Below, piece by piece: positions 43,118-58,745 of a stretch of 64,000 nucleotides of DNA. A program made the position numbers and the translations under genes. Where the stretch lies: the IMG/VR virus record IMGVR_UViG_3300043418_000072, positions 1 to 64,000 of that record. The stretch is one strand, 5' to 3'. Every line of letters begins with the position of its first letter. The stretch's first letter is position 1. The notes beneath the pieces are model-generated. The model saw only the letters and a program-made list of their open reading frames with translations. It did not search any database and was not told the origin of the DNA. This stretch comes from a virus.

Positions 43118-43131
43118 TATCGGAATACAAA

Positions 43132-44127
43132 ATGGCATACGGATCAGGAAATCAAATTATTGCGTTAGACTACAACACCTTTGCACAAGGTGGTGCGTCA
43201 GTTAACCATGCAGTAGCAAACATCAACACCATTTGGGGCACAGGACAAGGCGACAAAGGCTATGGACAAAGCACAGTGTTGTCAACAGTTGCAGGCGGTA
43301 CAGATACGGTAACTGCTACCCAATGGGCAACAATGATTTCCCGTTTAAACAGTATGCTAACTCACCAAATCGGATCGGGTTCGGGCATCACTGCACCAAC
43401 AGCAGGCGCGACTATTGCGTACCTAAACACATTAAGCTCAAGCATAACCACAGCGTTTAACAACCGTCTAAATGCTGCATCTAACGGAACGGACGTTGCT
43501 GGAACAGCAACTAACAGTGTGTGGAGCACTGGTGCACCAACTACATTCCAGATTATTAAAACAGCATCTTGGGCAAGTGCAGATCAAGCACGTTACTTCT
43601 TTAATGCTGGCGGCAAACTAATCCTTACATTTGGTACAGTTACTAACTCAGCAGGTAACAGCAAAGGTGCTGATTGGGCAACTCTAATTAACACTAAATT
43701 CAGTAGCATTACAGTTGGTGGTTACTCAAACGTGCGTAACGGCACTGGCGGTACTGCTGGTTTTACTAACAGTGCAATCGGATACTGGAATGCCGGTACA
43801 AGTAACAACTCAATGATTAACTTAACCTCTGCATCTGGTACAGCAGATTATGGCTCCAACTCTATTGCAGTTGGTATCAAGACAAACGGTGTACAAGGTA
43901 GCAATGGAGACGTTGGGTCTATTATGACGTTCCAAATTGATTTAAGCGATGCAGCAGCAGATACAAACATTGCACCAGCAGGTATTCCGGCATATACTCC
44001 AGCTGGTACAGCACCATCTCAAGGTAACTTTAACGATTCGTTGAACCTAACTATCCCAGTAAGCATTACAATCAGGCCACCAGAGACATCAAACCTATCT
44101 GGTATTGTTAACCCAACAATCGCGTAA
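43132..44127 (+). CDS. Tail-fibre-region virion protein (331 aa)
   Basis: A Ser/Thr/Asn/Gly-rich, mostly beta protein with no charged core, ending SLNLTIPVSITIRPPETSNL. The N terminus YGSGNQIIALDYNTFAQGG and a following IWGTGQGDKGYGQ are found in structural proteins of marine T4-like phages, although no function is known to me. It is the last gene of the late block, followed after four bases by a hairpin terminator. A tip or decoration role for the fibre is inferred from position. Confidence 0.68.
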   Translation: MAYGSGNQIIALDYNTFAQGGASVNHAVANINTIWGTGQGDKGYGQSTVLSTVAGGTDTVTATQWATMISRLNSMLTHQIGSGSGITAPTAGATIAYLNTLSSSITTAFNNRLNAASNGTDVAGTATNSVWSTGAPTTFQIIKTASWASADQARYFFNAGGKLILTFGTVTNSAGNSKGADWATLINTKFSSITVGGYSNVRNGTGGTAGFTNSAIGYWNAGTSNNSMINLTSASGTADYGSNSIAVGIKTNGVQGSNGDVGSIMTFQIDLSDAAADTNIAPAGIPAYTPAGTAPSQGNFNDSLNLTIPVSITIRPPETSNLSGIVNPTIA

Positions 44128-44156: not shown

Positions 44157-44186
44157 TTGACTCTTTCCTTTCCCTTTGTGTATAAT
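44157..44186 (+). promoter_or_regulatory. Sigma70-type promoter for the accessory operon
   Basis: TTGACT (44157-44162) and a perfect TATAAT (44181-44186) are separated by 18 bases, directly after the terminator. Unlike the late boxes elsewhere, this is a host sigma70 promoter. It suggests early expression of the following genes. The -10 box ends only six bases before the ATG at 44193, so the transcript may be leaderless. Confidence 0.72.
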
Positions 44187-44192
44187 TGTGTT

Positions 44193-44507
44193 ATGAGTAA
44201 CATACCTACGATTGTGGACCAAATTCGATTAGCCACTAACTATCAAAAGAACAAGCGCATACTACGGGAGCGCATCCAAACTGATCTGCATTTTGCACAT
44301 AATGGCGGTTTATTTAAAATCACTCCGGGCCTGATCTCTTTTGTAAAAGAATGGCCTGTTGACGAACTGTACATTGAAGATGTGTACGAGAATCCAATTC
44401 AAGTGGATAGACAGGTATTCTTAGTGCAAGCACAACAACATTACAGTCGAGTTATGAATGAATGGCATCAACAACATGCAGAACTTAAAAAGATTAGAAA
44501 AATCTAA
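44193..44507 (+). CDS. Conserved-looking small protein of unknown function (104 aa)
   Basis: I do not recognise the family. The product is helical and basic at its ends (IVDQIRLATNYQKNKRILRE at the start; EWHQQHAELKKIRKI at the end) with a small beta section GGLFKITPGLISFV. The ATG at 44193 is chosen. The frame remains open to a TTG at 44157, but that lies in the promoter. There is no Shine-Dalgarno sequence: the ATG falls where the mRNA of the sigma70 promoter should begin. It is the first gene of the accessory operon and overlaps the next gene by 50 bases. Confidence 0.7.
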   Translation: MSNIPTIVDQIRLATNYQKNKRILRERIQTDLHFAHNGGLFKITPGLISFVKEWPVDELYIEDVYENPIQVDRQVFLVQAQQHYSRVMNEWHQQHAELKKIRKI

Positions 44508-45303
44508 GGGCGTGTTATTGTTTGCATTTAACAATGCAGATACTGATTACATTAAGCTAACCAGCAACACTATTCGCTTGATTAAGCATAACCTCGGCTT
44601 GCCAGTTACGTTAGTAACGGGCTTAGATGAAGTAGTTGATTTTGAAGTTGATAACATAGTACGCATTGAATCACAAGGTGGCAACACACGTTACAGCACA
44701 GAGCTAGGTCAACGTGTACAGTGGCGAAACTTTGGTCGGTATATGGCCTACGAGCTTAGTCCATACGATGAAACTATTCTTATGGACACTGACTACCTTG
44801 TATTAGATAACAGTCTATTGACATATTTTGATACAACGTGGGACTACTTAATTCCACATCGTAATATTAATTTGGGACAAGATGAATTTGCGGATACCAT
44901 GGGCATGTACAGCTTGCCATTTATCTGGGCCACAGTTATCTTGTTTCGCAAAACAACCAAAGCAGAAACGCTATTTGATTTAGTGGGACGAGTGCAGCGT
45001 AATTACGATTACTATAAGATGTTATACAATATCCCTGCAACTAATTATCGTAACGATTATGCGTTTGCGATTGCAGATTATTTGGTTAACGGTTACCAGA
45101 CTGATAAACAAACGCAGTTACCACAGCCTTTATTAACTGCCACTGGGCAGCTACAAAGTATTAATAGGATTGGATCTTTACTGCACGTCAAAGACACTAA
45201 CGAAGGCTATGTTATCCCATTGGGTAATTTACATGTCCTGAGTAAAGGATATTTACTTAGTAACAACTTTAAAACATTTGTGGATCAGCACTGTGCAGCA
45301 TAA
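44458..45303 (+). CDS. Glycosyltransferase-like protein, GT-A fold (281 aa)
   Basis: After a short basic N terminus, GVLLFAFNNADTDYIKL and a segment of alternating strands and helices lead to ETILMDTDYLVLDN near residue 100. This is a D-x-D-like motif of nucleotide-sugar enzymes (compare LDxDxLV in GT8). Later, MGMYSLPFIWATVILF and YRNDYAFAIADYL match the acceptor side of such folds. It lacks membrane segments and is probably cytosolic. An ATG six codons into the frame (44476) is an alternative start. It overlaps the next gene, which has a similar organisation, so both may act on the same glycan. Substrate unknown. Confidence 0.68.
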   Translation: MNGINNMQNLKRLEKSKGVLLFAFNNADTDYIKLTSNTIRLIKHNLGLPVTLVTGLDEVVDFEVDNIVRIESQGGNTRYSTELGQRVQWRNFGRYMAYELSPYDETILMDTDYLVLDNSLLTYFDTTWDYLIPHRNINLGQDEFADTMGMYSLPFIWATVILFRKTTKAETLFDLVGRVQRNYDYYKMLYNIPATNYRNDYAFAIADYLVNGYQTDKQTQLPQPLLTATGQLQSINRIGSLLHVKDTNEGYVIPLGNLHVLSKGYLLSNNFKTFVDQHCAA

Positions 45304-46135
45304 AGAACAACAGGGATTTTTAACTATTGCACAAAACGGCAATGCAGATTATCTGCGAATGGCCTACGTGCAAGCATTGAGTATTAAGGCAGTGACACCG
45401 GGTGCCAGGTATGCAGTTATTGTAGACGCAGCTACTATGGCACAAGTGTCAGAGCAACATCGCAAGGTGTTTGATTATGTAATTGAATTAACACATGATT
45501 ATTCAACTGGTACTGATTGGAAGTTAGCAAATGAATGGCAAGTATTTTGGCTTACTCCTTTTAAGGAAACGATCAAGCTGGAAGCAGACATCGTGGTTAC
45601 ACGGGACATGACACAGAGGTGGGACCTATACCGTATGCGTGATGTGGTATTGGGACTAGGATGCAGAAACTATCATGGCGACCAAGTGCCAAGTCCATAT
45701 CGAACATTGTTCGTAGACAATGAGTTACCTGATGTATATAATGGACTGATGTATTTTCGTTATAGTAAAACAGCATTAGAATTCTTTAAGGTCGCAAGAG
45801 AGCTGTTCCTTACGTGGGAGCAGGTTGGGGCAGAGTTTAAGCGAACAGCAACTACTCAGGCCACTACAGATTTCGTATATGCAGTGGCCTCTAACATTGT
45901 TGGTAGAGAGTTAACTACGTTACCCGGGGTTGGAACAAGTTTTGTACACATGAAGCCCGGTATTAATGGATGGCCGTCGGATACTGAATTTCATAGGGCA
46001 GTTAATGTAGTAGTAGATGCACCAGATATTAGAATCAATAATGTGCTGCAACTATTTCCGGTCCATTATCATTACAAAGACTTTATCACAGATGAGATAA
46101 TTAGAGATTATGAACGAGCTGCCGGAGTTAATTAA
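45278..46135 (+). CDS. Glycosyltransferase-like protein (285 aa)
   Basis: QQGFLTIAQNGNADYLRMAY begins a GT-A-like domain; KETIKLEADIVVTRDM near residue 100 supplies an acidic E-A-D metal/sugar-nucleotide motif. DVYNGLMYFRYSKTALEFF near 150 and a later HMKPGINGW are typical of GT8-like enzymes. The longest frame starts at a TTG (45278); a GTG at 45293 just before the overlap with the upstream stop is equally possible, and there is no ATG nearby. It seems to be a distant paralogue of the upstream gene product. It would act in the phage's glycan modification set; donor and acceptor are unknown. Confidence 0.65.
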   Translation: MWISTVQHKEQQGFLTIAQNGNADYLRMAYVQALSIKAVTPGARYAVIVDAATMAQVSEQHRKVFDYVIELTHDYSTGTDWKLANEWQVFWLTPFKETIKLEADIVVTRDMTQRWDLYRMRDVVLGLGCRNYHGDQVPSPYRTLFVDNELPDVYNGLMYFRYSKTALEFFKVARELFLTWEQVGAEFKRTATTQATTDFVYAVASNIVGRELTTLPGVGTSFVHMKPGINGWPSDTEFHRAVNVVVDAPDIRINNVLQLFPVHYHYKDFITDEIIRDYERAAGVN

Positions 46136-46460
46136 AGCATTTGGTTTGATTGAACCAGAGGTTGCGCAAACCATTGAATATCGTTTATACTACGATGTAC
46201 ATGGTAATGCCCTGTACATGGGTATGGGTGATAGTAAAGGTACTAATTATATCACTATACCAAAATCAGTTTATGATAGAGCAACAGTACATAACCTAAA
46301 AGTTGTAAATGAACAGTTAATCACAATCGATGCTGGTACAATGTGGTTGCAGTTACGTAAATCAACAAGTGGGTACGCAGTAGTTAAGAACCATCCTGCG
46401 CTGCTAATAGAACAAGACGAAGAGTATACAGACATCGAATACTATGACAGAAATAATTGA
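46110..46460 (+). CDS. Unidentified small protein (116 aa)
   Basis: I do not recognise the family. A beta-rich middle (YRLYYDVHGNALYMGMG, NYITIPKSVYDRATVHNL) is followed by a very acidic tail (EQDEEYTDIEYYDRNN). It overlaps the preceding glycosyltransferase-like gene by 26 bases and the following one by 17, so it is translated as part of the same chain. A partner or chaperone role for the neighbouring transferases is possible, but nothing in the sequence proves it. Confidence 0.65.
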   Translation: MNELPELIKAFGLIEPEVAQTIEYRLYYDVHGNALYMGMGDSKGTNYITIPKSVYDRATVHNLKVVNEQLITIDAGTMWLQLRKSTSGYAVVKNHPALLIEQDEEYTDIEYYDRNN

Positions 46461-47343
46461 CGTTGCAGACCTGGACTGCATCTTCCTTACATATGATGAA
46501 CCTAAAAAAGAAGAATTCTGGATTCAGATACAGAATGTCGTTCCTTGGGCCAAGCGGGTGGATGGCGTTAGCGGGAGCGATGCTGCACACAAAGCAGCGG
46601 CAAGAGCTAGTGACACGGACCGCTTCATTCTTATTGACGGAGACAACCTCCCCGATCCTTCTTTCTTTAACCGGCAACTTAGTATTGATGATACTAATCG
46701 TGATTGTGTATTTAGATGGAGAGCAAGGAATATTATAAATGGATTACAATATGGCAATGGTGGGATTTCGTGCTGGACTAGGAGCTTTGTCGAATCTATG
46801 CGCACACACGAAGCCACTGACGGTAGTCATGAGACACAAGTTGAATTCTGTTTCCATCCTCAATACTGGGCTATGGCCGACTGCTACAGTACCACGCATC
46901 CGAATGCCACTGCGTTCCAGGCTTGGCGTGCAGGATTTAGGGAAGGCGTTAAAATGTGTTTGGACCGTGGACGTAAACCAAGTTTATCTGATTTCAAAAA
47001 TAGCGTTGTTAGGCGAAACCTTGACAACTTATCTATCTGGCACAACGTGGGATCAGATGTGGAAAATGGACTGTGGGCAATGGCAGGTGCCCGCCAAGGT
47101 ACTTACAACACCATGCTCTCAGACTGGGACTACACAGAAGTCCAAGACTTCCAAAAGTTAAAAGACTATTGGGATAACACGGTACACAAGTTTGATGTTA
47201 TTGACTTTGTAAACTTATACAGCGTTGAATTGACGAGATGCTTGGACTTACCTATTATTGACTTGGACGAATACCAAAGTAAATTTTTCAAACATCACTA
47301 CAATAGTCAGTTTAAGAATAAGGGAATCATGTGCAGAGAATAA
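46444..47343 (+). CDS. GT-A-like glycosyltransferase-related protein (299 aa), paralogue of the last module of the 60278 protein
   Basis: LDCIFLTYDEPKKEEFW starts the domain. AAHKAAARASDTDRFILIDGDN near residue 46-67 (given in part) contains D-G-D, a plausible metal-binding motif. NGLQYGNGGISCWTRSF and FQAWRAGFREGVKM follow. The same succession (D-x-x-F-I-S-N-G-E-P, AAYQAAANASTTDWFL, NGLVYGHQGMIAYN, W-R-T-A-F-R-E-V-L-K-L) forms the C-terminal part of the 815-residue protein at 60278, so the two are homologous. In the latter the D-G-D is replaced by V-F-A-K, hinting that only this copy is catalytic. Activity as a sugar transferase is inferred from fold-like features. Confidence 0.66.
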   Translation: MTEIIDVADLDCIFLTYDEPKKEEFWIQIQNVVPWAKRVDGVSGSDAAHKAAARASDTDRFILIDGDNLPDPSFFNRQLSIDDTNRDCVFRWRARNIINGLQYGNGGISCWTRSFVESMRTHEATDGSHETQVEFCFHPQYWAMADCYSTTHPNATAFQAWRAGFREGVKMCLDRGRKPSLSDFKNSVVRRNLDNLSIWHNVGSDVENGLWAMAGARQGTYNTMLSDWDYTEVQDFQKLKDYWDNTVHKFDVIDFVNLYSVELTRCLDLPIIDLDEYQSKFFKHHYNSQFKNKGIMCRE

Positions 47344-47897
47344 AAGGCATGATAGTCATTGGTACTGCTCGCAGTGGTAGTCACATGACCTGCGACATGC
47401 TTTATAACGAGTCGCAGTTGCCTGAAAAACTTATACTAGGTGAAGTCACTGAGCTGCCTGATATAGCTGACAAGTTTGTGTATTGCAGCATTGTGCAAAA
47501 CTGGGTAAAGATTGCGCTAGCAGTAGACATTAGTTGGACAAGTGATTACTATGTGGTTAATTTACGCCGTAGAGACAAAGTAGCACAGTATCTAAGTTGG
47601 TGCGTGTTTAGGGCGCAAACACAGGCTAGCATAAGCAAACATTCGCCGGACTGGAATGACTATAAAGACTTGTTACCGTGGGAGTCGACTAAGGACGACA
47701 TAGAGCAATTTCTAATGGAACAATATTTGGACTTTGCAATTACACCAAATGAGATTGTCTATTACGAAGATATGATCAAGTCCTGCAAGACAACTAAGTT
47801 TAAGCAGAACCAATACCCGATCCCTCCCCAAGAGATAGTAACCAATTACACATTAGTTAAAAACATGTTAGAGAAATTTTCATATGACAACAGGTAA
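47331..47897 (+). CDS. Sulfotransferase-like protein (188 aa)
   Basis: GMIVIGTARSGSHMTCDML at the N terminus is a phosphosulfate-binding loop like that of Stf0-type sulfotransferases (G-T-x-R-S-G-S/T-x). NLRRRDKVAQYLSWCVFRAQ near residue 80 matches the 3'-phosphate-binding segment with its conserved Arg and Ser and the family's R-x-D-K-x-x-Q helix. YYEDMIK near 145 is another common element. The enzyme would move sulfate from PAPS to a hydroxyl, perhaps on a sugar or lipid. The translated start is a GTG at 47331 overlapping the upstream stop, or the ATG at 47349. A kinase that could make PAPS is encoded in the same operon at 58742. Confidence 0.82.
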   Translation: MQRIKGMIVIGTARSGSHMTCDMLYNESQLPEKLILGEVTELPDIADKFVYCSIVQNWVKIALAVDISWTSDYYVVNLRRRDKVAQYLSWCVFRAQTQASISKHSPDWNDYKDLLPWESTKDDIEQFLMEQYLDFAITPNEIVYYEDMIKSCKTTKFKQNQYPIPPQEIVTNYTLVKNMLEKFSYDNR

Positions 47898-49275
47898 GAG
47901 CGACTTTATGAGTGCAGCTGATGAGATGAAGGCCAACTTGGGCCCTGCTCTCTGTTTGGCTAAATGGCAACAAGTAAGTCTGCACCTACCAACTGGATTA
48001 AACAACAGTTGCTACCATCCACCATTGCACAAGATCGACCCAGAAGCCATTAAACTTAACCCTGGCGCACTGCATAACACTGAGCACAAAAAGCAACAGC
48101 GTGTGATCATGCTAAAGGATGAAAAGCCTAGCGAGTGCAGCTATTGCTGGAACATTGAAGCACATGATCAACTAAGCGACAGACATTACAGAAGCGGAGA
48201 GCCCTGGGCAGCAGAACACTATGACGAGATCAAAAATTCTACAGGATCCGAAGATACGATTCCAAGTTATGTGGAAGTCAATTTTAATCACGCTTGTAAC
48301 CTTAAGTGTAGTTATTGCAGCCCTCAGTTTAGCAGTAGTTGGGCTGATGAAGTTGCTAGGCACGGAGCATTTCCTACTAGTGTTCCCCATAATGACCCTG
48401 CTCATTTTACGGGTGTTCGACGACCAATCCCTGCTCGTGAAGACAACCCTTATGTTGATGCGTTTTGGGAGTGGTGGCCTGAACTGTACCCTAAACTTAA
48501 ACATTTTAGAATGACAGGCGGCGAGCCACTAATGGACAAGAACACTTACAAGGTGTTTGACTATGTGCTGGCCATGCCCAAGCCTGACCTGCACTTAAAC
48601 GTAACCAGTAACTTCAGTGTAGAGCCCAAGCTAATGGATCAGTACCTTGACTACGTTAAGCGATTGTGCGATACACAAATTGAACACTTCATGCAGTATG
48701 TTAGTTTAGATAGCGGTAACATGGAACAGGCTGAGTACATTCGACATGGCATGACAGCATCTCGTGTTCATAATAATGTGCAGCGTTACCTAACTGATAT
48801 TCCTTATCGCAACAGTCTCACATTCATTATCACAATGAATAATTTAAGCATCGTTGGCTTACAGGCGCAGCTGGATTGGATTCTGGATTTACGAAAACAG
48901 CATAGCACAACTTATCAACGTGTTTGGTTCGACACTCCGTTGTTACGCACACCTAGCTGGCAAAGCATCCAGATCATGCCATGGGTCTATGTCAAGCGTA
49001 TGGAAGATGTACTAAAATGGATGCAAGCAAATGCCGAAACAGCAGACAAACCATTTCAGGGTTTTAAGGACTACGAGATACAACGTATGGCTCGTGACAT
49101 AGAATGGATGAAGGAAGGTAGCACTCTTGACCCTGAATATGTTACACTGCAACGTGCTGACTTTTATCGCTTCTTTAATCACCACGATACGAGACGCGGC
49201 ACTGACTTTAAAACAACATTCCCGGAAATGAAAGAGTTCTGGGACGAATGTAGGTACCATGCCCAGAATCAATAA
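47884..49275 (+). CDS. Radical SAM protein 1 of 5 in tandem (463 aa)
   Basis: CNLKCSYC (Cys138, 142, 145) is the radical SAM cluster motif, extended as SPQFSSSW. FRMTGGEPLMDK about 70 residues later is the SAM-binding GGE motif. The N-terminal 110 residues contain NSCYHPPLHKI and ECSYCW, cysteines in the layout of an auxiliary cluster or twitch-like domain in front of the core. VSLDSG near 270 and a C-terminal FYRFFNHHDTRRGTDF complete the pattern, the last shared with the next gene (FKNFFAQYDQRRGKDF). Start ATG overlaps the sulfotransferase stop. The family occurs in marine phages; the reaction is unknown. Confidence 0.92.
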   Translation: MTTGKSDFMSAADEMKANLGPALCLAKWQQVSLHLPTGLNNSCYHPPLHKIDPEAIKLNPGALHNTEHKKQQRVIMLKDEKPSECSYCWNIEAHDQLSDRHYRSGEPWAAEHYDEIKNSTGSEDTIPSYVEVNFNHACNLKCSYCSPQFSSSWADEVARHGAFPTSVPHNDPAHFTGVRRPIPAREDNPYVDAFWEWWPELYPKLKHFRMTGGEPLMDKNTYKVFDYVLAMPKPDLHLNVTSNFSVEPKLMDQYLDYVKRLCDTQIEHFMQYVSLDSGNMEQAEYIRHGMTASRVHNNVQRYLTDIPYRNSLTFIITMNNLSIVGLQAQLDWILDLRKQHSTTYQRVWFDTPLLRTPSWQSIQIMPWVYVKRMEDVLKWMQANAETADKPFQGFKDYEIQRMARDIEWMKEGSTLDPEYVTLQRADFYRFFNHHDTRRGTDFKTTFPEMKEFWDECRYHAQNQ

Positions 49276-50608
49276 CGAAACAGACCTAGAATACAAACGC
49301 AGAGTAATCGACATTAAGAGCGAAAGCTTCTGCGGAGCAAAATGGTACAACGCCACTATCTGGTTAGGTAGTGGTCAAACCACTAGTTGCCATCATCCGT
49401 TGCCACATGCAATCGATGTAAGCGAGCTATCATCTAACCCCAAAGCATTGCACAACACTACCAAGAAGAAAATGGAACGTGAGCAGATGCAAAAGGGAGA
49501 ACGTCCTGCAGGTTGTGAATACTGCTGGAAGATTGAAGATATGGGCAAAGACGCAGTAAGCGACCGTGTTTACAAAACAGTTATATATGACGATAAGGAT
49601 TTGAATTATGCTTTTAGTACCCCAGCCAGCACCGATGTGGATTTGCAAACTTTGGAAATTGCTTTCGACCGCACTTGTCAGTTTGCATGTAGCTACTGCA
49701 ATCCTGCTTTTAGCAGCACTTGGGTTAAAGACATTAGGAATAACGGGGCCTATAACGGATTGGTTAGTGACGGACGAAATCACTTTACTCATGCTCATGA
49801 TAGCTCTCAACTGTATCGCTTCGGTCAAGCTAATCCTTATGTGGACGCCTTTCACAAGTGGTGGGAAAGCGATCTCCACAGAACACTAAAGGAACTACGC
49901 ATTACTGGCGGCGAGCCGTTAATGTCAGGTGAGACTTGGAAGCTAATTGACTGGTTTAAGACTAATAACGGCAAGAGCAAGACACGTCTGGCTATTAACA
50001 GTAACTTAGGCACAGAGGTAGATATTGATCGTTTGCTCGATGCCATTGATGGAGTAGAAGTTGACTTGTACACTAGCAACGAATCTATTGGCTTGCAGTC
50101 TGAGTACATCCGTGATGGTATTAACTTTGGGGACTGGACTAACAACGTAGAGCGTTTACTGGCTAGTGGCAAGTTCCGTGGCCTGCATGTGATGTGTACT
50201 ATTAACGCACTATGTCTTACTAGCTTAGACAGCTTCCTTGAAATGTTGTTAGCATGGAAGAGTAGGTATGGTAAGGACTCGATTAACTTTTCGCTAAATA
50301 TTTTACGATTCCCAAGTTTTCAAAGCCCGTTGGTATTACCCGACGAACTACGCACCCAATACAGAACAAATCTCAGCAACTTCTATCAAGCTCACAAAGA
50401 CACTGGCGTGTGCCACGGATTTGAAATTGATCAATTGAAACGACTAATTGATTACCTTGATGTAATGATAACTCCACATGCAGGTGCGGCAGAGCAATCA
50501 GTGCTACAACAGGACTTTAAAAACTTCTTTGCACAGTACGATCAACGCAGGGGCAAAGACTTCTGCAACACATTCCCTGAGCTAGCAGCTTGGTATAATC
50601 AACTATAA
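49259..50608 (+). CDS. Radical SAM protein 2 of 5 (449 aa)
   Basis: Close paralogue of radical SAM protein 1: the same N-terminal block (AKWYNATIWLGSGQTTSCHH, then CEYCWKIED), the cluster motif CQFACSYC (Cys140, 144, 147) followed by NPAFSSTW, and LRITGGEPLMSG. The C terminus repeats the D-x-R-R-G-K-D-F signature. Its ATG lies 14 bases inside the end of the first gene. The stop codon TAA is embedded in a run of 10-base repeats that leads to the next radical SAM gene. Proteins 1 and 2 probably arose by duplication; whether they form a heterodimer or act on successive sites is open. Confidence 0.92.
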   Translation: MPRINNETDLEYKRRVIDIKSESFCGAKWYNATIWLGSGQTTSCHHPLPHAIDVSELSSNPKALHNTTKKKMEREQMQKGERPAGCEYCWKIEDMGKDAVSDRVYKTVIYDDKDLNYAFSTPASTDVDLQTLEIAFDRTCQFACSYCNPAFSSTWVKDIRNNGAYNGLVSDGRNHFTHAHDSSQLYRFGQANPYVDAFHKWWESDLHRTLKELRITGGEPLMSGETWKLIDWFKTNNGKSKTRLAINSNLGTEVDIDRLLDAIDGVEVDLYTSNESIGLQSEYIRDGINFGDWTNNVERLLASGKFRGLHVMCTINALCLTSLDSFLEMLLAWKSRYGKDSINFSLNILRFPSFQSPLVLPDELRTQYRTNLSNFYQAHKDTGVCHGFEIDQLKRLIDYLDVMITPHAGAAEQSVLQQDFKNFFAQYDQRRGKDFCNTFPELAAWYNQL

Positions 50609-50639
50609 TTCACTATAATTCACTATAATTCACTATAAT
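50594..50639 (+). repeat. Five TATAAT hexamers at exact 10-base spacing
   Basis: TATAAT occurs at 50594, 50604, 50614, 50624 and 50634. The central unit CACTATAATT repeats three to four times without change. The first copies overlap the end of the upstream coding region and the last runs into the ATG at 50638. The spacing is about one helical turn. No good -35 element is seen 17 bases before any copy. Confidence 0.9.
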
Positions 50640-51954
50640 GGCAGATAACCTAAACGACTACTACAAAGATTACAACTACGGCGCACGTAAGCCGGTGTAC
50701 ATCAAAGAAGAAGACCTACGCACGGATCAGCTCGATCGACTAATTAAGAGCGATCAGTTCTGCATGATTCCCTGGATCCACATGCACGCCTTTCCTGACG
50801 GTCGTGCATATCCTTGCTGCCTGAGCGAGCCAGACCATCCAATTGGTAATCTTAAAACGCAAACCATGCGTGAGATTTGGAACGATGCTCCGCTAAAGGA
50901 CATGCGTAAACGTATGCTACTAAATCAACCTTGCAAGGAATGTACCAAGTGCTATGAGCAAGAAGATAGCAAACTGTTTAGTATGCGTGAAAGTGCTAAC
51001 AAGAACTTCGGGCACCACATTGGATTAGTTGACGACACAAAAGAGGATGGACAATATGATGACTTTAAATTGCGCTACTATGATATTCGCTTTAGCAACC
51101 TTTGTAACTTTAGCTGCCGTACCTGCGGTAGCATCTTTTCAAGTAGTTGGTATAGAGATGAAAAAGCAGCTGGATGGGATCCAAAACACCCTCAAGTGAT
51201 GTATGCTGGTAAAGACAAAGGCGACATGTGGGAGCAGATGCAAGAGCATATCCCACATTTGGAACAAATCTACTGGGCAGGTGGCGAACCGCTTATTATG
51301 GAAGAACACTGGAAGGTACTTGACGAACTAGTTAAGCGCAAGATGTTCCACGTGCGACTGATCTATAACACTAACTTTAGCGAAATGAAGTTTAAAGGTC
51401 GTGACGTATTCGAAATGTGGAAACTGTTTGATTGTGTTAGCGTTGGTGCTAGCTTAGATGGCAGCTATGAGCGCGGCGAGTACATCCGCAAAGGACAAGA
51501 TTGGCAGCAAACCGTTGACAACCGCAAGCGCATGATTGAAGTATGCCCTAACGTAGACTTTTACGTTAGTAGTACAGTAAGCATGATGAACGTGTTGCAT
51601 ATTGCAGACTTTCACCGAGAGTGGAGCGACCTTGGTCTAGTACGCCCAATGGATTGGAACATCAACATCCTACAACATCCGCATCGTTATCGTGTTGATG
51701 TGTTGCCTCAGCATTTGAAAGAGCAAGCCAAAGCAAAGATTGAAGAACACTTACAGTGGCTACGCCCGCAAGACAAACTAAGCAGAGCCACTAGCGGTTA
51801 CGAAGGTATTATTAACTTCATGATGGCAAACGATAGCACAAGCCAATTGCCCGAGTTCTTTAAGAACAATGACTTGATTGATAATGTACGCAAGGAAAAC
51901 TTCTTTGCCGTATTCCCGGAACTTGGAGACCTAAAGAACTATGCACCTACCTAA
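50638..51954 (+). CDS. Radical SAM protein 3 of 5, N-terminal SPASM/twitch type (438 aa)
   Basis: Residues 40-115 form a SPASM-like domain: CMIPWIHMHAFPDGRAYPCC, then GNLKTQTMREIWN and CKECTKCYEQE, the usual C-x-x-P-W ... C-C ... G-N-L ... W pattern that normally follows a radical SAM core but here precedes it. The core has CNFSCRTC (Cys156, 160, 163) and IYWAGGEPLIMEEHW. VGASLDGSYERGEYIRKG near 280 is also typical. The ATG has no Shine-Dalgarno sequence and directly abuts the TATAAT repeats; the gene before it ends within those repeats. The 3' end overlaps the next gene by 14 bases. Confidence 0.93.
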   Translation: MADNLNDYYKDYNYGARKPVYIKEEDLRTDQLDRLIKSDQFCMIPWIHMHAFPDGRAYPCCLSEPDHPIGNLKTQTMREIWNDAPLKDMRKRMLLNQPCKECTKCYEQEDSKLFSMRESANKNFGHHIGLVDDTKEDGQYDDFKLRYYDIRFSNLCNFSCRTCGSIFSSSWYRDEKAAGWDPKHPQVMYAGKDKGDMWEQMQEHIPHLEQIYWAGGEPLIMEEHWKVLDELVKRKMFHVRLIYNTNFSEMKFKGRDVFEMWKLFDCVSVGASLDGSYERGEYIRKGQDWQQTVDNRKRMIEVCPNVDFYVSSTVSMMNVLHIADFHREWSDLGLVRPMDWNINILQHPHRYRVDVLPQHLKEQAKAKIEEHLQWLRPQDKLSRATSGYEGIINFMMANDSTSQLPEFFKNNDLIDNVRKENFFAVFPELGDLKNYAPT

Positions 51955-53149
51955 GACTATTTGTATGCTGCCGTGGGTTAGTATTGAGACTAGCCCAATG
52001 GGAACCACACGCCCATGTTGTCTCGCACAAGAGCAGATCACAGACGAAAACGGGGTCAAGTACGATCTTAATGAAACAGACTTAGCAACAGTGTACAAGA
52101 GCGAATACATGCAGAATCTGCGTAGACAATTCCGTGCAGGTGAAAAGCCTGCAACATGTAGTGACTGCTGGAAAGAAGAAGAAATTGGTCGCAACAGCAA
52201 ACGTATCAACAGCCAGATTCGACTAAAGGAATTGTACCCGCTCGTGGACTGGGCCAACGACACGCCAGACCAGCTGTGGTTCATTGACTTAAAGTTAGGC
52301 AACATCTGTAACTTAAAATGCCGTATCTGCGGAAGCTGGAGCAGCAGCAAGTGGGCAGAGGAAGAAATGAATTACATGCCTGCAGGCGCAGACAAGAAAC
52401 AACATATCGCATACCAGTGGTTAAAGAAAGGCGCATGGCCACGCAAGACCACAACGTTCTGGGACAACCTCAGAGAGATGCTACCTAACATCAAATACTT
52501 TGAGTTCACTGGCGGAGAACCATGGTTGATTCAAGAGCACTTTGATCTATTGCGTTATGCAGCCGACAACGGCTTTGCAAAGGGTATTGATATTCACTAC
52601 AATACAAATGCTACCCAATGGCCCGAAAATGCAGTAGATCTATGGAAAGAGTTTGGTCGTGTGGATATTGCATTTAGCGTTGATAACGTAGGTGATCGGT
52701 TTGAATATGAACGCTACGGCGCTAAGTGGGATCGAGCAAACGAAGTAATTGATGCAGCACATCAACTGCGCCGAGTGCAGAAGAATATTACAACTCAGCT
52801 ATGTTTTACAATCAACATTCAAAACGTTTATTACATCGATGAATTGCTAGCTTGGGCTGCACCTAAGATGTTTAACAGCATCCACTTCAACATGTTACAT
52901 AGCCCTAACCATATGAGCGTACAATACATGACACCCGCAGCACAAGAGCTGGTTGTTGCTAAACTGCAATCAGTAACATGGCCGGGTCGTTATCAGCAAG
53001 AAGTTGACAACGTAGTTAGGTTTATACAAAATGGGCAGGGCAGTGATGGTGCAGAATTCCTGCGCCAAATGCAGCGCACAGACGAATACCGCAAGCAAGA
53101 CTTTAGAACAACTCACTTAGACATCGCAAAGGCAATGGGGTATGAATAA
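51941..53149 (+). CDS. Radical SAM protein 4 of 5, N-terminal SPASM/twitch type (402 aa)
   Basis: The N terminus has CMLPWVSIETSPMGTTRPCC and CSDCWKEEE (about residues 8-80), a SPASM/twitch-like auxiliary domain. The core follows with CNLKCRIC (Cys123, 127, 130), GSWSSSKW and FEFTGGEPWLIQEH. Compared with protein 3 the N-terminal domain lacks the long first extension. The C terminus ends with RQDF-like RKQDFRTTHLDIAKAMGYE, resembling the end of the others (F-x-x-x-F-P-E-L). It overlaps the third and fifth genes by 14 and 8 bases. Likely cytosolic; substrate unknown. Confidence 0.93.
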   Translation: MHLPKTICMLPWVSIETSPMGTTRPCCLAQEQITDENGVKYDLNETDLATVYKSEYMQNLRRQFRAGEKPATCSDCWKEEEIGRNSKRINSQIRLKELYPLVDWANDTPDQLWFIDLKLGNICNLKCRICGSWSSSKWAEEEMNYMPAGADKKQHIAYQWLKKGAWPRKTTTFWDNLREMLPNIKYFEFTGGEPWLIQEHFDLLRYAADNGFAKGIDIHYNTNATQWPENAVDLWKEFGRVDIAFSVDNVGDRFEYERYGAKWDRANEVIDAAHQLRRVQKNITTQLCFTINIQNVYYIDELLAWAAPKMFNSIHFNMLHSPNHMSVQYMTPAAQELVVAKLQSVTWPGRYQQEVDNVVRFIQNGQGSDGAEFLRQMQRTDEYRKQDFRTTHLDIAKAMGYE

Positions 53150-54446
53150 ACCTGCCACTATGTGCCTTGCACCTTGGGTACATACATATCTAAGTCCACA
53201 AACAGAACGCAGAATGTGTTGCGCTAGCCGCGAACCTGCACAAAATTTTCAACAGTATATCGACGTTTCAGCGGGTACAGGACGTTATATACCAATAACT
53301 CTAGAAGAACACTGGAATAGCGAGCACATGCGGTCGGTCCGTCGTCGCATGATTGCTGGGGAAACCCTACCAGAGTGTGAAGTATGTAATGATAAACTGT
53401 TGAATACTTCCGTTTACCGCAGCTATTTTGACCATATGTTCGGGCATAAGTATGATTACAATGTTGTAATAAACGCAACGGACGAGACGGGCTACACTAC
53501 AATGAAACCCGTTAGCTGGGATTACAGGTTTACCAATCTGTGTAATTTCAAATGCCGTATGTGTGGTGACATGTTAAGTAGTAGTTGGGAGACAGAGCAA
53601 AGACAGCATAACATGATAGATTGGTCTAATCCAAAGAATACTTGGATGCAACCTGAAGTCAAAAAACAAATTGAGCAATTTCAAGATAGAGAAATTGAGG
53701 CAGAGTTTAGTCAAGCCGTCGAAGAACACCGTGTTGAAGAAGTCTACTGGGTTGGCGGAGAACCGCTCATGTATGAACAACACTGGCGCTATATGCAACG
53801 CATCATAGAACTAGGAGATGGCCAAAATGTCTATGCACGATATAATACAAATCTTTCTCGAACTACTTATCGTGGTGTTAACTTGTACACTGATATCCTT
53901 GCTAATATACGGGATTGGCAAATATGTGCAAGTCTTGACGGTACGGGACCAATTGGCGAATACATTAGAACAGGCCTTGATTACCCTAGATGGCTTGAAA
54001 ACTTCCGTGCAGGAATTGCGATCCAGCGTCACCGTCGACAAATGCGAATCGACTTTACCCTTACCTTGCCGGGTATGTTCGAGCTCGAATCCATGCAAAG
54101 ACTGTCCCAAGAACTCAACGTTGACCTCCTTGCCAAAGTAATTTTTAGTTTCAGCCCGGACATAGTTATGTCACCTTTAGCCCTACCTAGACATCTACTA
54201 GATGAATGGATAGATGAACAACTTAACTTAATCAGTAACGATCCGTTAAAGGATATCTTAGTCCAGCTGAAAACTAGACCCACTTTTGCTGAACAATGGC
54301 CCAATGAATATCAAGATGGACTAAAGCGTGGCAAAGCTCGTATCAAAAAACTTGAACAAATTCGCAATGACCAGTATACTATGAGAGATATACTTGCAGA
54401 CAGACCTGCGGTATTAGAATGGTGGGACTCAATTGGGATATCGTGA
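53142..54446 (+). CDS. Radical SAM protein 5 of 5, N-terminal SPASM/twitch type (434 aa)
   Basis: CLAPWVHTYLSPQTERRMCC near residue 7 and CEVCNDK near 85 form the auxiliary domain. CNFKCRMC (Cys134, 138, 141) with GDMLSSSWE is the radical SAM motif. VYWVGGEPLMYEQHW is the GGE motif and is nearly the same as in protein 3. ASLDGTGPIGEYIRTGLDY near 268 is conserved too. Residues 290-434 complete the barrel and a helical tail. The start is within the previous gene's end, with no promoter in between. The next small gene starts inside its last codons. Confidence 0.93.
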   Translation: MNKPATMCLAPWVHTYLSPQTERRMCCASREPAQNFQQYIDVSAGTGRYIPITLEEHWNSEHMRSVRRRMIAGETLPECEVCNDKLLNTSVYRSYFDHMFGHKYDYNVVINATDETGYTTMKPVSWDYRFTNLCNFKCRMCGDMLSSSWETEQRQHNMIDWSNPKNTWMQPEVKKQIEQFQDREIEAEFSQAVEEHRVEEVYWVGGEPLMYEQHWRYMQRIIELGDGQNVYARYNTNLSRTTYRGVNLYTDILANIRDWQICASLDGTGPIGEYIRTGLDYPRWLENFRAGIAIQRHRRQMRIDFTLTLPGMFELESMQRLSQELNVDLLAKVIFSFSPDIVMSPLALPRHLLDEWIDEQLNLISNDPLKDILVQLKTRPTFAEQWPNEYQDGLKRGKARIKKLEQIRNDQYTMRDILADRPAVLEWWDSIGIS

Positions 54447-54642
54447 ACGCTTAGACAGACTATATCACTCTCATGCAAAAACTCTCCAAGGGTTCGAGAG
54501 AGTAACCGAATTGCTCCAACAGGAATATCCGGGCAACTATCGAGTGCATGAGGCATTTGTCCCGTCTAAGATGAGTTGGGGACCACGATTGGTATTTGAG
54601 GACGAACAAGAAGAAATTGTGTTTCGATTAAAGTATGAATAA
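54433..54642 (+). CDS. Unidentified small protein (69 aa)
   Basis: A 69-residue, charged protein (GYRERLDRLYHSHAKTLQG, MSWGPRLVFEDEQEE) with no recognised motif. The only start in frame is a TTG overlapping the end of the fifth radical SAM gene; its stop overlaps the next start. Its place at the end of the radical SAM run makes it worth considering as a small partner or substrate, but it has none of the Cys or Gly-rich features of known radical SAM substrate peptides. Confidence 0.55.
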   Translation: MGYRERLDRLYHSHAKTLQGFERVTELLQQEYPGNYRVHEAFVPSKMSWGPRLVFEDEQEEIVFRLKYE

Positions 54643-55723
54643 AGTAACAGTAACCCTGCAAAACCCCTTAGACAAAAGCGACACGTTAGATTACTACATC
54701 AACGTAAACGATACTCCAATGGGCAAACTGTGGTTCGAAGCATTGCAGGATGTAGTGCAGCGTAATCTATATCTTGAAAAGAACTTTTGCTTTTTGGGAT
54801 TTCCTGACAGCCAACGTGACTTGCGTTTTATTTGCCAAGAACTGTTTTGGGCAGTAAATGAGATTAACAGTTTCTTTGACGACTATCATATCGAAGAATT
54901 GTATACTCATACCACATTACGTGATCCAGTTACACTCGATCCCAACCAAGACTTGATGAACAAGTTGCATAATCATTTTGAGATACTGCAAGGCACTGTT
55001 AACGGACTTAGTGAATATTACAAGCGGGCAGACTACACTACAAAGTTTGCTATCCGCCAACTAAACTTACTATGCCACGAAGCAGAAAGTTTAATGTTAA
55101 GCCAGCGTAAAAAAGCAACAGCGCCAGAGTGGGTACGCCCTAGCCAAATCACAACCTTTTTAAATTGTCCACGATATGAATTCCCAGGAATATGTAAAAC
55201 TGCTTTTAGCGAACATAACTACGATCGACGCTTTGGGGAAGTCTACTTACATTGGACACAGATTGGCAAAACACTGTTTGAAGTTTATAGAGATGAGGCG
55301 GGAGTCGATATTGACCAGGCCACTTGTGATGCTATTACTCACCTACGTTACTATAGCGGGGAGTTTGACATTGAATGGGCGCAAGATGTATGCTTTAATG
55401 GTCCGCATCCTTGGCACACCCGAGAGCTTACAGGATTTAGGGATTGGCTTGTCCGTAACGGATTCGACTTACATGACACGCAATATAACTATGGATACCA
55501 TTCAGTGGGCCAAGTTTCGTTGCAAGAAAGTTTTGGCACAACTGATTACGCCAACATATGGCCCATCCTCTCTAAATACCTTGACATACAGGGGATCACT
55601 ACAGATGACGGGCGAGGGAATGTACTACGCTCCCTATATCCCTACACTTGGACAGACCAAGACTACTACCAACAACAAATCAACCGTTTAAAGCCTGGAT
55701 ATGATTATAGCAGCAGGCGATAG
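54635..55723 (+). CDS. Unidentified protein (362 aa)
   Basis: I do not recognise a family. The first 160 residues are helical (DFDDYHIEELYTHTTL-like acidic and His-rich parts; QDLMNKLHNHFEILQG; FAIRQLNLLCHEAESLM). The second half is aromatic-rich with several His and Cys (PRYEFPGICKTAF, GEVYLHWTQIGKTLFEVY). HNHFE and LCHEAE could bind metal, but this is speculative. It overlaps both neighbours and so belongs to the radical SAM/SGNH operon. Proteins of this appearance occur in marine phage gene clusters beside glycan-modifying genes, as far as I recall. Confidence 0.62.
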   Translation: MNKVTVTLQNPLDKSDTLDYYINVNDTPMGKLWFEALQDVVQRNLYLEKNFCFLGFPDSQRDLRFICQELFWAVNEINSFFDDYHIEELYTHTTLRDPVTLDPNQDLMNKLHNHFEILQGTVNGLSEYYKRADYTTKFAIRQLNLLCHEAESLMLSQRKKATAPEWVRPSQITTFLNCPRYEFPGICKTAFSEHNYDRRFGEVYLHWTQIGKTLFEVYRDEAGVDIDQATCDAITHLRYYSGEFDIEWAQDVCFNGPHPWHTRELTGFRDWLVRNGFDLHDTQYNYGYHSVGQVSLQESFGTTDYANIWPILSKYLDIQGITTDDGRGNVLRSLYPYTWTDQDYYQQQINRLKPGYDYSSRR

Positions 55724-56525
55724 TTTTGTTTATGGCAGTGAGCTAGCAAGCCCTGCCAATACCTTTACAGCATTGTTAGGCGCAGACGAGTGCGTTGCAT
55801 GGCCAGGATATAGCAACGATGCTATTGCCCGCACCACCATTGAACGTTGCGAGCAAGGCGGGGTAACTGGTGTAATCGTTAGCTGGACATTTCCCGGTCG
55901 TTACGAGTTTAGATTTGCATACGATACAAAGCAACGCAAAAGTCCATGGTACAGCATTAACTCGTGGACGATAAAACAAGATGCAAGAGAAATTGAAAAA
56001 GAATTCGTTACTAAGGATAAGGCTATTCTGGATGCCCAGCTGGAGACCATCGGCAGAGCGCAGACGACTGGTGTTGCAGATTTTGCAAGAACGTTCTACG
56101 CACACGTGGGTTCTACGGAATATTGGGAAGTGTATTCAAGTCTTAAAGAAATTGTGTACCTTCAAAATTACCTTCAAGTAAAAGGCATTCCCTACATGTT
56201 TACTTGTGCAGACAATAGCTTGATCTATAACTACACCGTTAGCCAAAACGATCCTACTATTATGAGTCTTGTAAACCAAATTGATTTGTTGAAATGGTAT
56301 TGGTTTCCTGCAGGAACTAAGTTTAATGAAACATGCGACCCAAGAGGTTTCTATCAGTGGGCAAAGGAAAATAAATACCCTATAGGCACCACACATCCGC
56401 TAGAGCAAGCGCACAGTGACGCAGCCCTATTAATGAAAGAACAATTCAATGAACTGGTTAAAAAGTCTGTACAACAGAATCCGTCTAGAGATTCGTTACC
56501 GCAAGAAACTCAAGGAATTGCGTAA
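55701..56525 (+). CDS. SGNH-hydrolase-like protein A (274 aa)
   Basis: MIIAAGDSFVYGSEL contains the block I G-D-S nucleophile motif at the N terminus. AWPGYSNDAIARTTIE near residue 34 holds an N-D that fits the block III Asn. THPLEQAH near 237 supplies the catalytic His. The usual Asp three residues before that His is absent (G in its place). SGNH enzymes remove or add O-acetyl groups on glycans or act as esterases. A close relative follows at once. It overlaps the upstream gene by 23 bases. Loss of the Asp may mean a dyad mechanism or a non-catalytic role. Confidence 0.72.
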   Translation: MIIAAGDSFVYGSELASPANTFTALLGADECVAWPGYSNDAIARTTIERCEQGGVTGVIVSWTFPGRYEFRFAYDTKQRKSPWYSINSWTIKQDAREIEKEFVTKDKAILDAQLETIGRAQTTGVADFARTFYAHVGSTEYWEVYSSLKEIVYLQNYLQVKGIPYMFTCADNSLIYNYTVSQNDPTIMSLVNQIDLLKWYWFPAGTKFNETCDPRGFYQWAKENKYPIGTTHPLEQAHSDAALLMKEQFNELVKKSVQQNPSRDSLPQETQGIA

Positions 56526-56546: not shown

Positions 56547-57092
56547 ATGATGTTTGTTAACGGTGACAGCTTTACATACGGGGAAGAACTACCACACGAC
56601 CAAAAACCGTGGCCACAGTTATTAGACTGCCCTGTTATGAATAGAGCTCAGCCGGGCTATAGCAATGATGCAATCGTTAAGTCTACGGTGGTTGCAGTAG
56701 AGAATAATTACCCAACCTATGCAATCATTGCTTGGACTACACCTAATAGGATAGAAGTAAACGGACAACACCTTACTCCAAGTAGTCATAGAAAGTATGG
56801 ATCGATTTGCGATCATGTATTCTTGGATTGGGACGAAGAATGGGCCATAACAAAGTTTTTAACGCAAGTGGTAATGTTAGATGCGTACTTGCGTGATCGC
56901 AATGTACCTTATGTATTTGTAAGAACGTTCGATGTTCCTAATTGCAAGGTAGGCAATTGGATACCGGGCAGTATGGTAGAATGGATGGGCGATTGCCCTA
57001 AAGGACCCGGCGGGCATCCGCTAGAGCTAGGTCATCAAAGAATAGCAGATAAAATAAATGAACATATTAGGCATCTCGGCTGGTTATCATGA
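56547..57092 (+). CDS. SGNH-hydrolase-like protein B (181 aa)
   Basis: A shorter paralogue of protein A: NGDSFTYGEELPHD, QPGYSNDAIVKSTV and GGHPLELGHQRIA line up with GDSFVYGSEL, WPGYSNDAIARTT and THPLEQAH. As in A, no Asp lies three residues before the final catalytic-type His. The middle insertion of A (about 90 residues) is missing. It starts 21 bases after protein A, preceded by little ribosome-binding sequence, and its end overlaps the carbamoyltransferase gene by 35 bases. A role in trimming or adding acyl groups on a surface glycan is inferred. Confidence 0.72.
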   Translation: MMFVNGDSFTYGEELPHDQKPWPQLLDCPVMNRAQPGYSNDAIVKSTVVAVENNYPTYAIIAWTTPNRIEVNGQHLTPSSHRKYGSICDHVFLDWDEEWAITKFLTQVVMLDAYLRDRNVPYVFVRTFDVPNCKVGNWIPGSMVEWMGDCPKGPGGHPLELGHQRIADKINEHIRHLGWLS

Positions 57093-58545
57093 CGCAGCCG
57101 CAACAGTGTTAGACGAAGATGGGAACATCCTTTTCGCCAGTCATTCCGAAAGATATAGTAAGTCAAAGTCGGATGCTAATTTCTGTAGTCCACTTATTCG
57201 TAAGCTCGAGGAATACAATCCCATTCAGACCGTGGCTTATTACGAACGTCCTATATATAAGCAGCTACGTCAGGCTTATGCAGGACAAGGATTTGAGTGG
57301 GATAAGCTCAGCGTTAAGAAACTTGTGCATAAGCAGATTGGTCATGCCAAGTGGTGGGATCTTGCCCACTACAAAAACTACAACCATCACCTTAGCCATG
57401 CAGCAGCGGGATTTCAAACAAGCGATTTTAACAGAGCAACCGTGGTCGTTATTGATGCCATTGGGGAGTTTGAAACAACCACTATATGGGGAGCTGAATA
57501 CATTAACGGTAAGGCAACGTATAAAAAACTTTGGCAACAGAATTACCCACATTCAATCGGACTCTTTTATAGTGGAGTTACTCAGCGGGTTGGCCTACGC
57601 CCACTAGACGAAGAATACATTCTAATGGGCATGGCTGCTTATGGTAATCCGGTGCAAACTAGCAATAGTATGCGTTATGACTTAATCGATGATGAATGGG
57701 AGATTAAGTTTAAAGAAAACATGCACATAGGACTTTCGCAAAAGTATCTATGTGATTTTAAAGACTATGATCTAGCGGCCGGCGCTCAAGACTTAGCAGA
57801 GGATTTAATTCTCAATGTTATGGTTCGAGCAAAGCAATTTAAGTGGAGTGACAATCTTGTATACATGGGCGGGTGCGCTTTAAACTGTGCAGCAAATGCA
57901 CGTATAGGAAACTACTTTGAGAATATATGGATTATGCCTAACCCTGGCGATGCTGGCAGTAGCCTTGGTGCTGCTGCTTTGGCTTATGGGGGTGCCCTTA
58001 ACTGGAGAGACGCTTATCTCGGGCATGATATTCCTGGGCCTTACCCTGTTAACAACATTTTGGACGAGTTACTTACTCGGCAAATTGTGGGAGTGGCTTC
58101 CGGGCGAGCCGAATTCGGACCAAGGGCACTTGGAAACAGAAGCCTGCTTGCAGATCCTAGAGGCAGCGAGATTAAGGAGAAAGTAAATGACATTAAACGT
58201 AGACAACAATTCAGACCATTTGCGCCCGTTATTTTGGAAGAACTGGCTGATACTTACTTTGATATGCCTCGCGGTTTCGAGCATAGTAGGTATATGCAGT
58301 CAGTCGCTCGTTGCAGGGTACCTGACTTATTTCCTGCTATCGTTCACGCTGACGGGACTAGTCGTGTCCAGACAGTGCCGAAAGATGGAAGCGGCATTAG
58401 AGAGCTGCTCGAGAAGTGGTATGTAATGACCGGATGCCCTATGCTGTTAAACACAAGCCTTAACATTCGTGGGGAACCAATGGTAAACGATCGTGCAGAC
58501 GCCGACCGCTTTGAACAATTATACAGCGTAAAGGTCTGTTCATGA
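57058..58545 (+). CDS. Carbamoyltransferase, NodU/TobZ family (495 aa)
   Basis: MNILGISAGYHDAAATVL is the hallmark start (ILGI-x-x-x-H-D-A/S-x-x). YNHHLSHAAAGF near residues 106-117 provides the metal-binding His pair. GCALNCAANARIGN near 272, DAGSSLGAA near 300 and EFGPRALGNRSLLADPR near 352 complete the Kae1-like and C-terminal domains. Such enzymes use carbamoyl phosphate and ATP to carbamoylate a hydroxyl on sugars (Nod factors) or antibiotics. Length is somewhat below the family's 550-600 but all core motifs are present. It overlaps both neighbours. Phage copies are known from other large phages and fit with glycan decoration. Confidence 0.92.
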   Translation: MNILGISAGYHDAAATVLDEDGNILFASHSERYSKSKSDANFCSPLIRKLEEYNPIQTVAYYERPIYKQLRQAYAGQGFEWDKLSVKKLVHKQIGHAKWWDLAHYKNYNHHLSHAAAGFQTSDFNRATVVVIDAIGEFETTTIWGAEYINGKATYKKLWQQNYPHSIGLFYSGVTQRVGLRPLDEEYILMGMAAYGNPVQTSNSMRYDLIDDEWEIKFKENMHIGLSQKYLCDFKDYDLAAGAQDLAEDLILNVMVRAKQFKWSDNLVYMGGCALNCAANARIGNYFENIWIMPNPGDAGSSLGAAALAYGGALNWRDAYLGHDIPGPYPVNNILDELLTRQIVGVASGRAEFGPRALGNRSLLADPRGSEIKEKVNDIKRRQQFRPFAPVILEELADTYFDMPRGFEHSRYMQSVARCRVPDLFPAIVHADGTSRVQTVPKDGSGIRELLEKWYVMTGCPMLLNTSLNIRGEPMVNDRADADRFEQLYSVKVCS

Positions 58546-58745
58546 CTGACGCAACTAGTAGAAGTATTGCTAAGACTATTAGTTGGAGAGTAACTGGTAC
58601 CGCATCAACTTTATTGATATCGTATTTGGTACTTGGGAATCTTCAAATAGCTGGCGCAATAGCATCAACACAATTAGTAATTAATACTGTGTTATATTTT
58701 ATGCACGAACGTGCCTGGAATAAAATTAGATGGGGTAGAGAATGA
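58542..58745 (+). CDS. DUF2061 small membrane protein (67 aa)
   Basis: The sequence ISWRVTGTASTLLISYLVLG, followed by a second hydrophobic helix (AGAIASTQLVINTVLYFMHE) and ending W-N-K-I-R-W-G, fits the DUF2061 family. This gives two membrane helices with a short connecting loop. DUF2061 genes are commonly next to or fused with adenylylsulfate kinase genes; here the kinase-like gene starts in the ATGA overlap. It is probably an inner-membrane protein. The function is unknown, but the genomic link to sulfate activation supports the reading of the next gene. Confidence 0.85.
   Translation: MTDATSRSIAKTISWRVTGTASTLLISYLVLGNLQIAGAIASTQLVINTVLYFMHERAWNKIRWGRE

Follow-up and report, generated by a model that had tools for sequence, protein, structure and literature searches.

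Radical S-adenosylmethionine (SAM) enzymes with an N-terminal twitch domain form an abundant subfamily in phages and bacteria (N_Twi_rSAM, NCBIfam NF033640), for which no assigned reaction was found. Among related enzymes, BtrN, AprD4 and BlsE act on cyclitol, aminoglycoside and nucleoside sugars, respectively. Pelagimyophages, which are T4-like, carry radical SAM cassettes in a hypervariable host-recognition cluster together with tail fibres and glycosyltransferases (PMC7029224). Another T4-like marine phage, TARA_ERS488813_N000010, encodes 12 radical SAM genes and an A-type iron-sulfur (Fe-S) carrier (PMC5332604), and glycans on virion proteins have been reported for mycobacteriophages (cited in PMC12619734). 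This text concerns five consecutive radical SAM genes, designated R1 to R5, at positions 47884-54446 of the window, the whole stretch of DNA analysed, which comprises the first 64 kb of the 354,098-base virus record IMGVR_UViG_3300043418_000072 from an aquatic, uncultured jumbo phage of bacteria.

All five proteins match nearly the whole NF033640 model above its cut-off. That model defines a sequence family without a known reaction, whereas the fixed five-member order and the glycan and tail-fibre setting found here lie outside its definition. In pelagimyophages the cassettes are additions that differ between two genomes, while here a conserved five-gene core with fixed partners occurs in well over 100 loci. 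The marine phage TARA_ERS488813_N000010 is similar in its many radical SAM genes, and A-type carriers also occur in 7 of 10 long records related to this one, yet the passages of PMC5332604 that were examined are silent on the block, on gene order or partners and on any role in sugars. For mycobacteriophages, the cited account mentions no radical SAM tailoring, whereas here a virion glycan is a prediction. The preliminary description of this locus, made from the sequence, called it the best candidate for an undescribed system. This was too strong given the curated family and the two phage precedents. The literature searched describes neither the fixed R1-R5 core and its partners nor the origin of the block from separate lineages or a link to Bdellovibrionota clusters.

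In the interpretation favoured here, which has about an even chance of being right, the five genes encode N-terminal-twitch radical SAM enzymes that act as a modular set within a tail-fibre-linked glycan operon, tailoring sugars that most likely decorate tail fibres. A more specific version is offered tentatively: a multi-step radical SAM assembly line, drawn from separate N_Twi lineages, would produce a chemically new sugar attached to the phage's own tail fibres, and the same R1/R2 chemistry would serve surface glycans of Bdellovibrionota. The fixed block represents a defined five-enzyme set with defined partners (glycosyltransferases and a carbamoyltransferase), and its reduced R1-only and R1-R2 versions represent minimal enzymes. 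If the sugar interpretation is true, radical chemistry would be linked to host recognition in aquatic phages.

The five radical SAM enzymes and their origin

The genes lie on the plus strand and encode proteins of 463 (R1, 47884-49275), 449 (R2, 49259-50608), 438 (R3, 50638-51954), 402 (R4, 51941-53149) and 434 (R5, 53142-54446) amino acids (aa). Their whole-protein scores against NF033640 are 301, 293, 412, 334 and 284 bits, respectively, compared with a curated cut-off of 170 bits, and nearly the full model length is matched in each, placing all five in the family. The preliminary description had proposed five adjacent enzymes of the N-terminal-twitch type, and they are indeed intact, full-length open reading frames (ORFs) at exactly the positions it gave, assigned to N_Twi_rSAM by the hidden Markov model (HMM) search. 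It had also described four of five junctions overlapping by 8-16 bases. The overlapping chain stands, but the counts are corrected: five of the six junctions, flanks included, overlap (by 14, 17, 14, 8 and 14 bases, hence 8-17), and R2 and R3 are separated by a gap of 29 bases.

Each protein carries a CxxxCxxC motif and a GGE motif, as had been described, and auxiliary twitch cysteines N-terminal to the radical SAM core, the arrangement that defines the family. In R1 these residues are C138/C142/C145, GGE at 212-214, and the N-terminal cysteines C24, C43, C85 and C88. R3 has the clear N-terminal SPASM/twitch domain, with both Pfam SPASM and Radical_SAM over their cut-offs. An N-terminal SPASM-like domain had been noted in three of the proteins, which holds for R3-R5; the restriction to three does not, as R1 and R2 contain a variant form, CxxKW...SC[YH]H...CxxC. 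Across 88-110 distinct relatives per family, conservation of the radical SAM cysteines, the GGE motif and the N-terminal cysteines is complete or almost complete (at least 97%), and every family adds conserved residues of its own. Median pairwise identity among relatives is 0.70 for R1, 0.67 for R2, 0.54 for R3, 0.61 for R4 and 0.74 for R5, which makes R5 the most strongly conserved member.

One of the five, R1, was modelled with AlphaFold (pLDDT 95.3, pTM 0.91). The model matches solved radical SAM folds with E values of 1e-5 to 1e-3 at 11-17% identity; BlsE ranks best (E 1.2e-5), followed by NifB, viperin, anSME, AprD4 and MoaA, and SuiB and SkfB are also among the neighbours. The predicted fold of R1 is intact, contradicting for this protein the objection, raised in advance, that the cores might lack SAM-binding geometry. 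A profile of the family aligns in its N-terminal part with the BtrN domain that holds the auxiliary cluster (E 1.4e-4) and in its core with viperin, BlsE and MoaA. The auxiliary domain of BtrN thus resembles the N-terminal twitch, but lies behind the core rather than in front of it, and the low identity of the fold matches sets a further distance from BtrN, AprD4 and BlsE. The N-terminal match is as would be expected if the auxiliary domain had moved from behind the core to the front.

The presence of viperin and BlsE among the nearest solved cores, together with relatives in carrier-protein clusters of Paenibacillus and Poseidonocella (identified by eye), raises the alternative that the set makes a small molecule or a modified nucleotide, such as a viperin-like ddhCTP or a base for DNA hypermodification. 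This is very improbable: viperin models reach at most about 26 bits against cut-offs of 180 and 450, so that an identity as viperin is rejected, and the operon is locked to tail fibres rather than to DNA-replication genes.

A phylogeny of 87 sequences, a quick tree with some long branches, resolved each of R1-R5 as one clade with 99-100% support. R1 is nested among sequences from Bdellovibrionota chromosomes and R3 among other bacterial sequences, and constraining R1-R5 to a single clade was rejected (approximately unbiased test, p-AU 2e-6); the block was therefore assembled from separate lineages and not by local duplication. The genes are adjacent and all belong to one subfamily, as recent tandem duplicates with redundant function would be, and the preliminary description had suggested a phylogeny for tandem duplication. 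Given identities of about 20-32% between the five (R1 and R2 share 32%), the separate clades, the different bacterial surroundings of R1 and R3 and the rejected constraint, tandem duplication is refuted and its probability negligible. Some of the bacterial contigs are pieces of metagenome-assembled genomes (MAGs) and may be viral; two of them, L176 and L236, binned as Pelagibacter and Neomarinimicrobiota, contain tail-fibre and R genes and look like phage.

Conservation of the block and composition of its operon

Two scans of IMG/VR provided the 160 best-matching loci; only the best matches were kept, and the sample hence represents a near clade. The order R1-R2-R3-R4-R5 on one strand was present in 118 of these loci, and chance is not a concern, given that more than 100 other loci repeat this arrangement of genes. 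Among the 88 distinct contigs that, once identical R1 sequences are removed, reach at least 9.5 kb past the R1 start, R2, R3 and R5 each occur downstream of R1 in all 88 and R4 in 78. The block thus stays together in its own clade, the question for which the preliminary description had proposed a survey of related phages. The block region of the near clade also contains 70 extra N_Twi copies from 16 families, most commonly between R1 and R2, and these variable copies fit modular tailoring.

Two further scans used distant R1 relatives as queries, with a family HMM threshold of 250 bits. Marine relatives found with a marine R1 (loci L246-L304) have the same upstream genes and the order R1-R2-R3-R5-R4, with R4 and R5 swapped; all five genes are present in 41 of 47 eligible loci of the tallied group L246-L313. 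Loci L305-L312 keep R1-R2-R5, most of L314-L337 have R1 only, often in two copies, plus gene-63-like genes, and L338-L405, from phages with other neighbours, contain R1 in every case, R2 in 45 of 59 and varying combinations of R3-R5. R1 is constant across all phage groups examined (R1 relatives having served as the query in two of the four scans), R2 is nearly constant, and R3-R5 are optional modules. An invariant five-gene unit in all phages is ruled out, and the obligatory five-step set implied by the preliminary description does not hold, as distant relatives keep R1 or R1-R2 only. Hundreds of related viruses carry the set in part or whole. The block is absent from all 50,697 records of an annotated phage collection, and cultured phages come closest with genes of Vibrio phages, of about 23% identity. 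Vibrio phage K566 contains three radical SAM genes at 161548-165950 (L174 16007-20409); their neighbours are uncharacterised, and a PagP gene lies close by.

The block belongs to a same-strand chain of mostly overlapping genes that extends from gene 45 (44157) to gene 62 (59164), directly after the tail-fibre genes 40-44 (37773-44127, plus strand, as for all genes of the chain). Genes 41 and 43 match tail-fibre and virion PHROGs, and gene 44 occurs in 61 of 63 relatives. In the same relatives, gene 45 (44157-44507), a small conserved protein of unknown function with no PHROG match, is found in 59. Gene 46 (44458-45303; 63/63) is glycosyltransferase-like by motif, with invariant DxD columns and no Pfam or PDB sequence match, and gene 47 (45278-46135; 63/63) is glycosyltransferase-like by eye and context, with no Pfam match and a match to phrog_1903, of unknown function. 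These are followed by gene 48 (46110-46460; 36/63), a small protein of unknown function with no Pfam match, and gene 49 (46444-47343; 63/63), a predicted GT-A-like glycosyltransferase with a conserved DGD motif and no Pfam family. The model of gene 49 (pLDDT 91) has SunS, HddC and WrtF as best Foldseek matches (E 1e-4 to 1e-3), all of them GT-A glycosyltransferases or sugar nucleotidyltransferases; no cultured phage record examined encodes this gene. Gene 50 (47331-47897), directly before R1, shows a sulfotransferase-like P-loop motif only.

Downstream of R1-R5, conservation was counted in 53 relatives. Gene 57 (54635-55723; 51/53) is a conserved protein of unknown function with no Pfam, PHROG or PDB match. 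Gene 58 (55701-56525; 47/53), of unknown function, is SGNH-hydrolase-like by its GDSF motif and gene 59 (56547-57092; 49/53) SGNH-like by motif, each with a sub-threshold match to DUF6071. Gene 60 (57058-58545; 52/53) encodes an O-carbamoyltransferase of the NodU/CmcH type, matching Pfam Carbam_trans_N and _C as well as phrog_1601, and gene 62 (58742-59164; 40/53) a small P-loop kinase whose best Pfam match is APS kinase (PF01583, over cut-off at 32.8 bits). Conserved glycosyltransferases and sugar-tailoring enzymes thus occur together as in a glycan cluster, with genes 46 and 47 counted by motif and context. In this T4-like phage, as in the host-recognition clusters of pelagimyophages, tail-fibre genes come first and are followed by glycosyltransferase and radical SAM genes. 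The flanking sugar genes named in the preliminary description are accordingly retained for the glycosyltransferase-like genes 46, 47 and 49 and the carbamoyltransferase gene 60, but not for the sulfotransferase: gene 50 occurs in 2 of 63 relatives, its annotation finds no convincing Pfam or PDB match, and it is rejected as part of the system.

The adjacent tail-fibre genes would also suit enzymes that modify a protein or peptide directly, either a tail fibre or a small precursor. Peptides are the substrates of most characterised SPASM/twitch enzymes, and SuiB, SkfB and anSME are among the fold neighbours of R1. Against this, the conserved partners resemble sugar enzymes, and the tail proteins are almost without cysteine. 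No conserved precursor-peptide gene lies beside the enzymes among ORFs of at least 60 aa, as a maturase of ribosomally synthesised and post-translationally modified peptides would require; gene 56 (69 aa) is rarely matched in relatives. Direct protein or peptide modification is therefore improbable.

Promoter and terminator scans gave many chance-like matches and no clear internal break in the operon, and Rfam had no match in 37000-64000. At the far end of the operon, DegT aminotransferase and NAD-dependent epimerase-like genes (record 63558-65617; L169 58-2117) end convergently; this pair could supply an amino sugar. Between a baseplate wedge gene and the tail-fibre genes, an ORF of 3992 aa (25798-37776, plus strand), with 17% serine plus threonine and 2 cysteines, is probably a giant tail protein.

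Sugar clusters, proposed substrate and proposed acceptor

The link to sugar genes proposed in the preliminary description is seen again in two other settings, a further phage group whose glycosyltransferases differ and the chromosomes of bacteria. In the second T4-like group (L338-L405), R1 lies directly after tail-fibre-like genes and GT7/GT2 glycosyltransferases. One of its loci, L388, contains tail-fibre-like genes (by eye), a GT2-like gene, two genes of the GT7 galactosyltransferase type, R1 and then a carbamoyltransferase; the GT7 genes have no match to genes 46, 47 or 49. In another, L379, R1 is situated among sugar epimerases and a cytidylyltransferase-like gene. On a Bdellovibrionota chromosome (L232), an R1/R2-like pair lies in a cluster of the polysaccharide type, beside GT2, NTP transferase, DegT, GDP-mannose-dehydratase-like and epimerase genes, and another bacterial locus (L214) has an N_Twi gene beside carbamoyltransferase, SIS and cytidylyltransferase genes. 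Near N_Twi loci in 37 bacterial genomes (0.68 Mb), 7 carbamoyltransferase genes were found against 0.26 expected (Poisson P 1e-8) and 5 relatives of gene 49 against 0.13 expected (P 2e-7), in a test that treats related genomes as independent. The two GT7 genes of L388 (7066-9977), between the tail-fibre-like genes and R1, are fused to LamG-like lectin domains. Bdellovibrionota genomes among the bacterial loci L183-L240 have up to 32 N_Twi matches each, weak ones included, and no description of this expansion was found.

A sugar substrate is inferred because of the conserved partners and because sugars or cyclitols are the known substrates of BtrN, AprD4 and BlsE. In the proposed mechanism, each enzyme would generate a 5'-deoxyadenosyl radical and use one auxiliary [4Fe-4S] cluster as an electron acceptor or substrate-binding site. 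By analogy with these three enzymes, the radical step may oxidise, epimerise or deoxygenate a sugar, present as a nucleotide sugar or within a growing glycan. The products would be joined by genes 46, 47 and 49 and carbamoylated by gene 60. A core sugar would come from R1, usually with R2, and variation from R3-R5 and the extra copies between R1 and R2. The finished glycan would then decorate the phage's own tail fibres, which is the weakest step. The virion is proposed as acceptor because the block is locked to tail-fibre genes and strongly conserved in very diverse phages.

The principal alternative is that, during infection, the operon makes or changes a glycan of the host surface (O-antigen or capsule), one possible purpose being to block superinfection. 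This view has been published for similar host-recognition clusters of phages (PMC7029224), and bacterial relatives do occur in surface-polysaccharide clusters; in L222, for instance, an N_Twi pair lies near Wzt-type export, GT1, sulfotransferase and aminotransferase genes. A host-specific change would be expected to turn over faster, however, than a core so strongly conserved in very diverse phages (R5 at 0.74). In addition, two phage groups that differ in their glycosyltransferases both tie the core to tail-fibre genes, and the operon has no recognisable gene for a flippase, polymerase or ligase. Host-glycan modification is rather unlikely, although it is the main rival.

Several observations weigh against tail-fibre decoration by a radical-tailored sugar. 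The literature searched assigns no reaction to any N_Twi_rSAM member. Genes 46 and 47 are putative glycosyltransferases by motif and context, and the predicted fold match of gene 49 is modest (TM about 0.3). A T4-type late promoter was neither found nor enriched near the operon, and the bacterial enrichment may be affected by relatedness of the genomes counted. Furthermore, N_Twi genes lie beside nuo or atp operons in L195, L223 and L230, and beside acyl-carrier-protein, ketosynthase- or NRPS-like genes in L183 and L211 (Paenibacillus, Poseidonocella), all assigned by eye. The family is therefore broader than glycans, and the carrier-protein settings suggest non-glycan substrates for some members.

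The phage and its other radical SAM genes

Portal, baseplate hub/lysozyme and baseplate wedge proteins fall into T4-type PHROG families, identifying the virus as a T4-like jumbo phage. Its large terminase is closest to those of the jumbo phages PA5oct (53%) and Phosso (50%), then Atu_ph07 and GAP32. Outside the block, the whole record contains 3 full N_Twi genes and 4 weaker radical SAM matches, and 15 long relatives have 7-16 radical SAM matches per genome. One full gene lies on the minus strand at 7278-8510 (7389-8501 in the record-wide list), beside SbcCD-type nuclease genes, which a weaker radical SAM gene (8500-9450, minus strand) also adjoins, far from the five-gene block; the two other full members, identified by profile match, are at record positions 178664-179581 and 291416-292591.

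A search of the window's record together with nine of its long relatives found no phage-encoded electron donor of the Fer2 or flavodoxin type. Genes for A-type Fe-S carriers (PF01521) are present in one or two copies in the 7 long records mentioned above, namely those behind L043, L080, L126, L162, L037, L084 and L157, and not in the window's own record; their occurrence in long relatives is consistent with heavy use of Fe-S clusters. A second sugar-type region at 274-293 kb of the record (L172 1-18609) encodes, by eye, C-methyltransferase-like and dTDP-glucose-dehydratase-like proteins, two PP-loop-like proteins, a nucleotidyltransferase that ends in a cupin-like part, and a further N_Twi protein.

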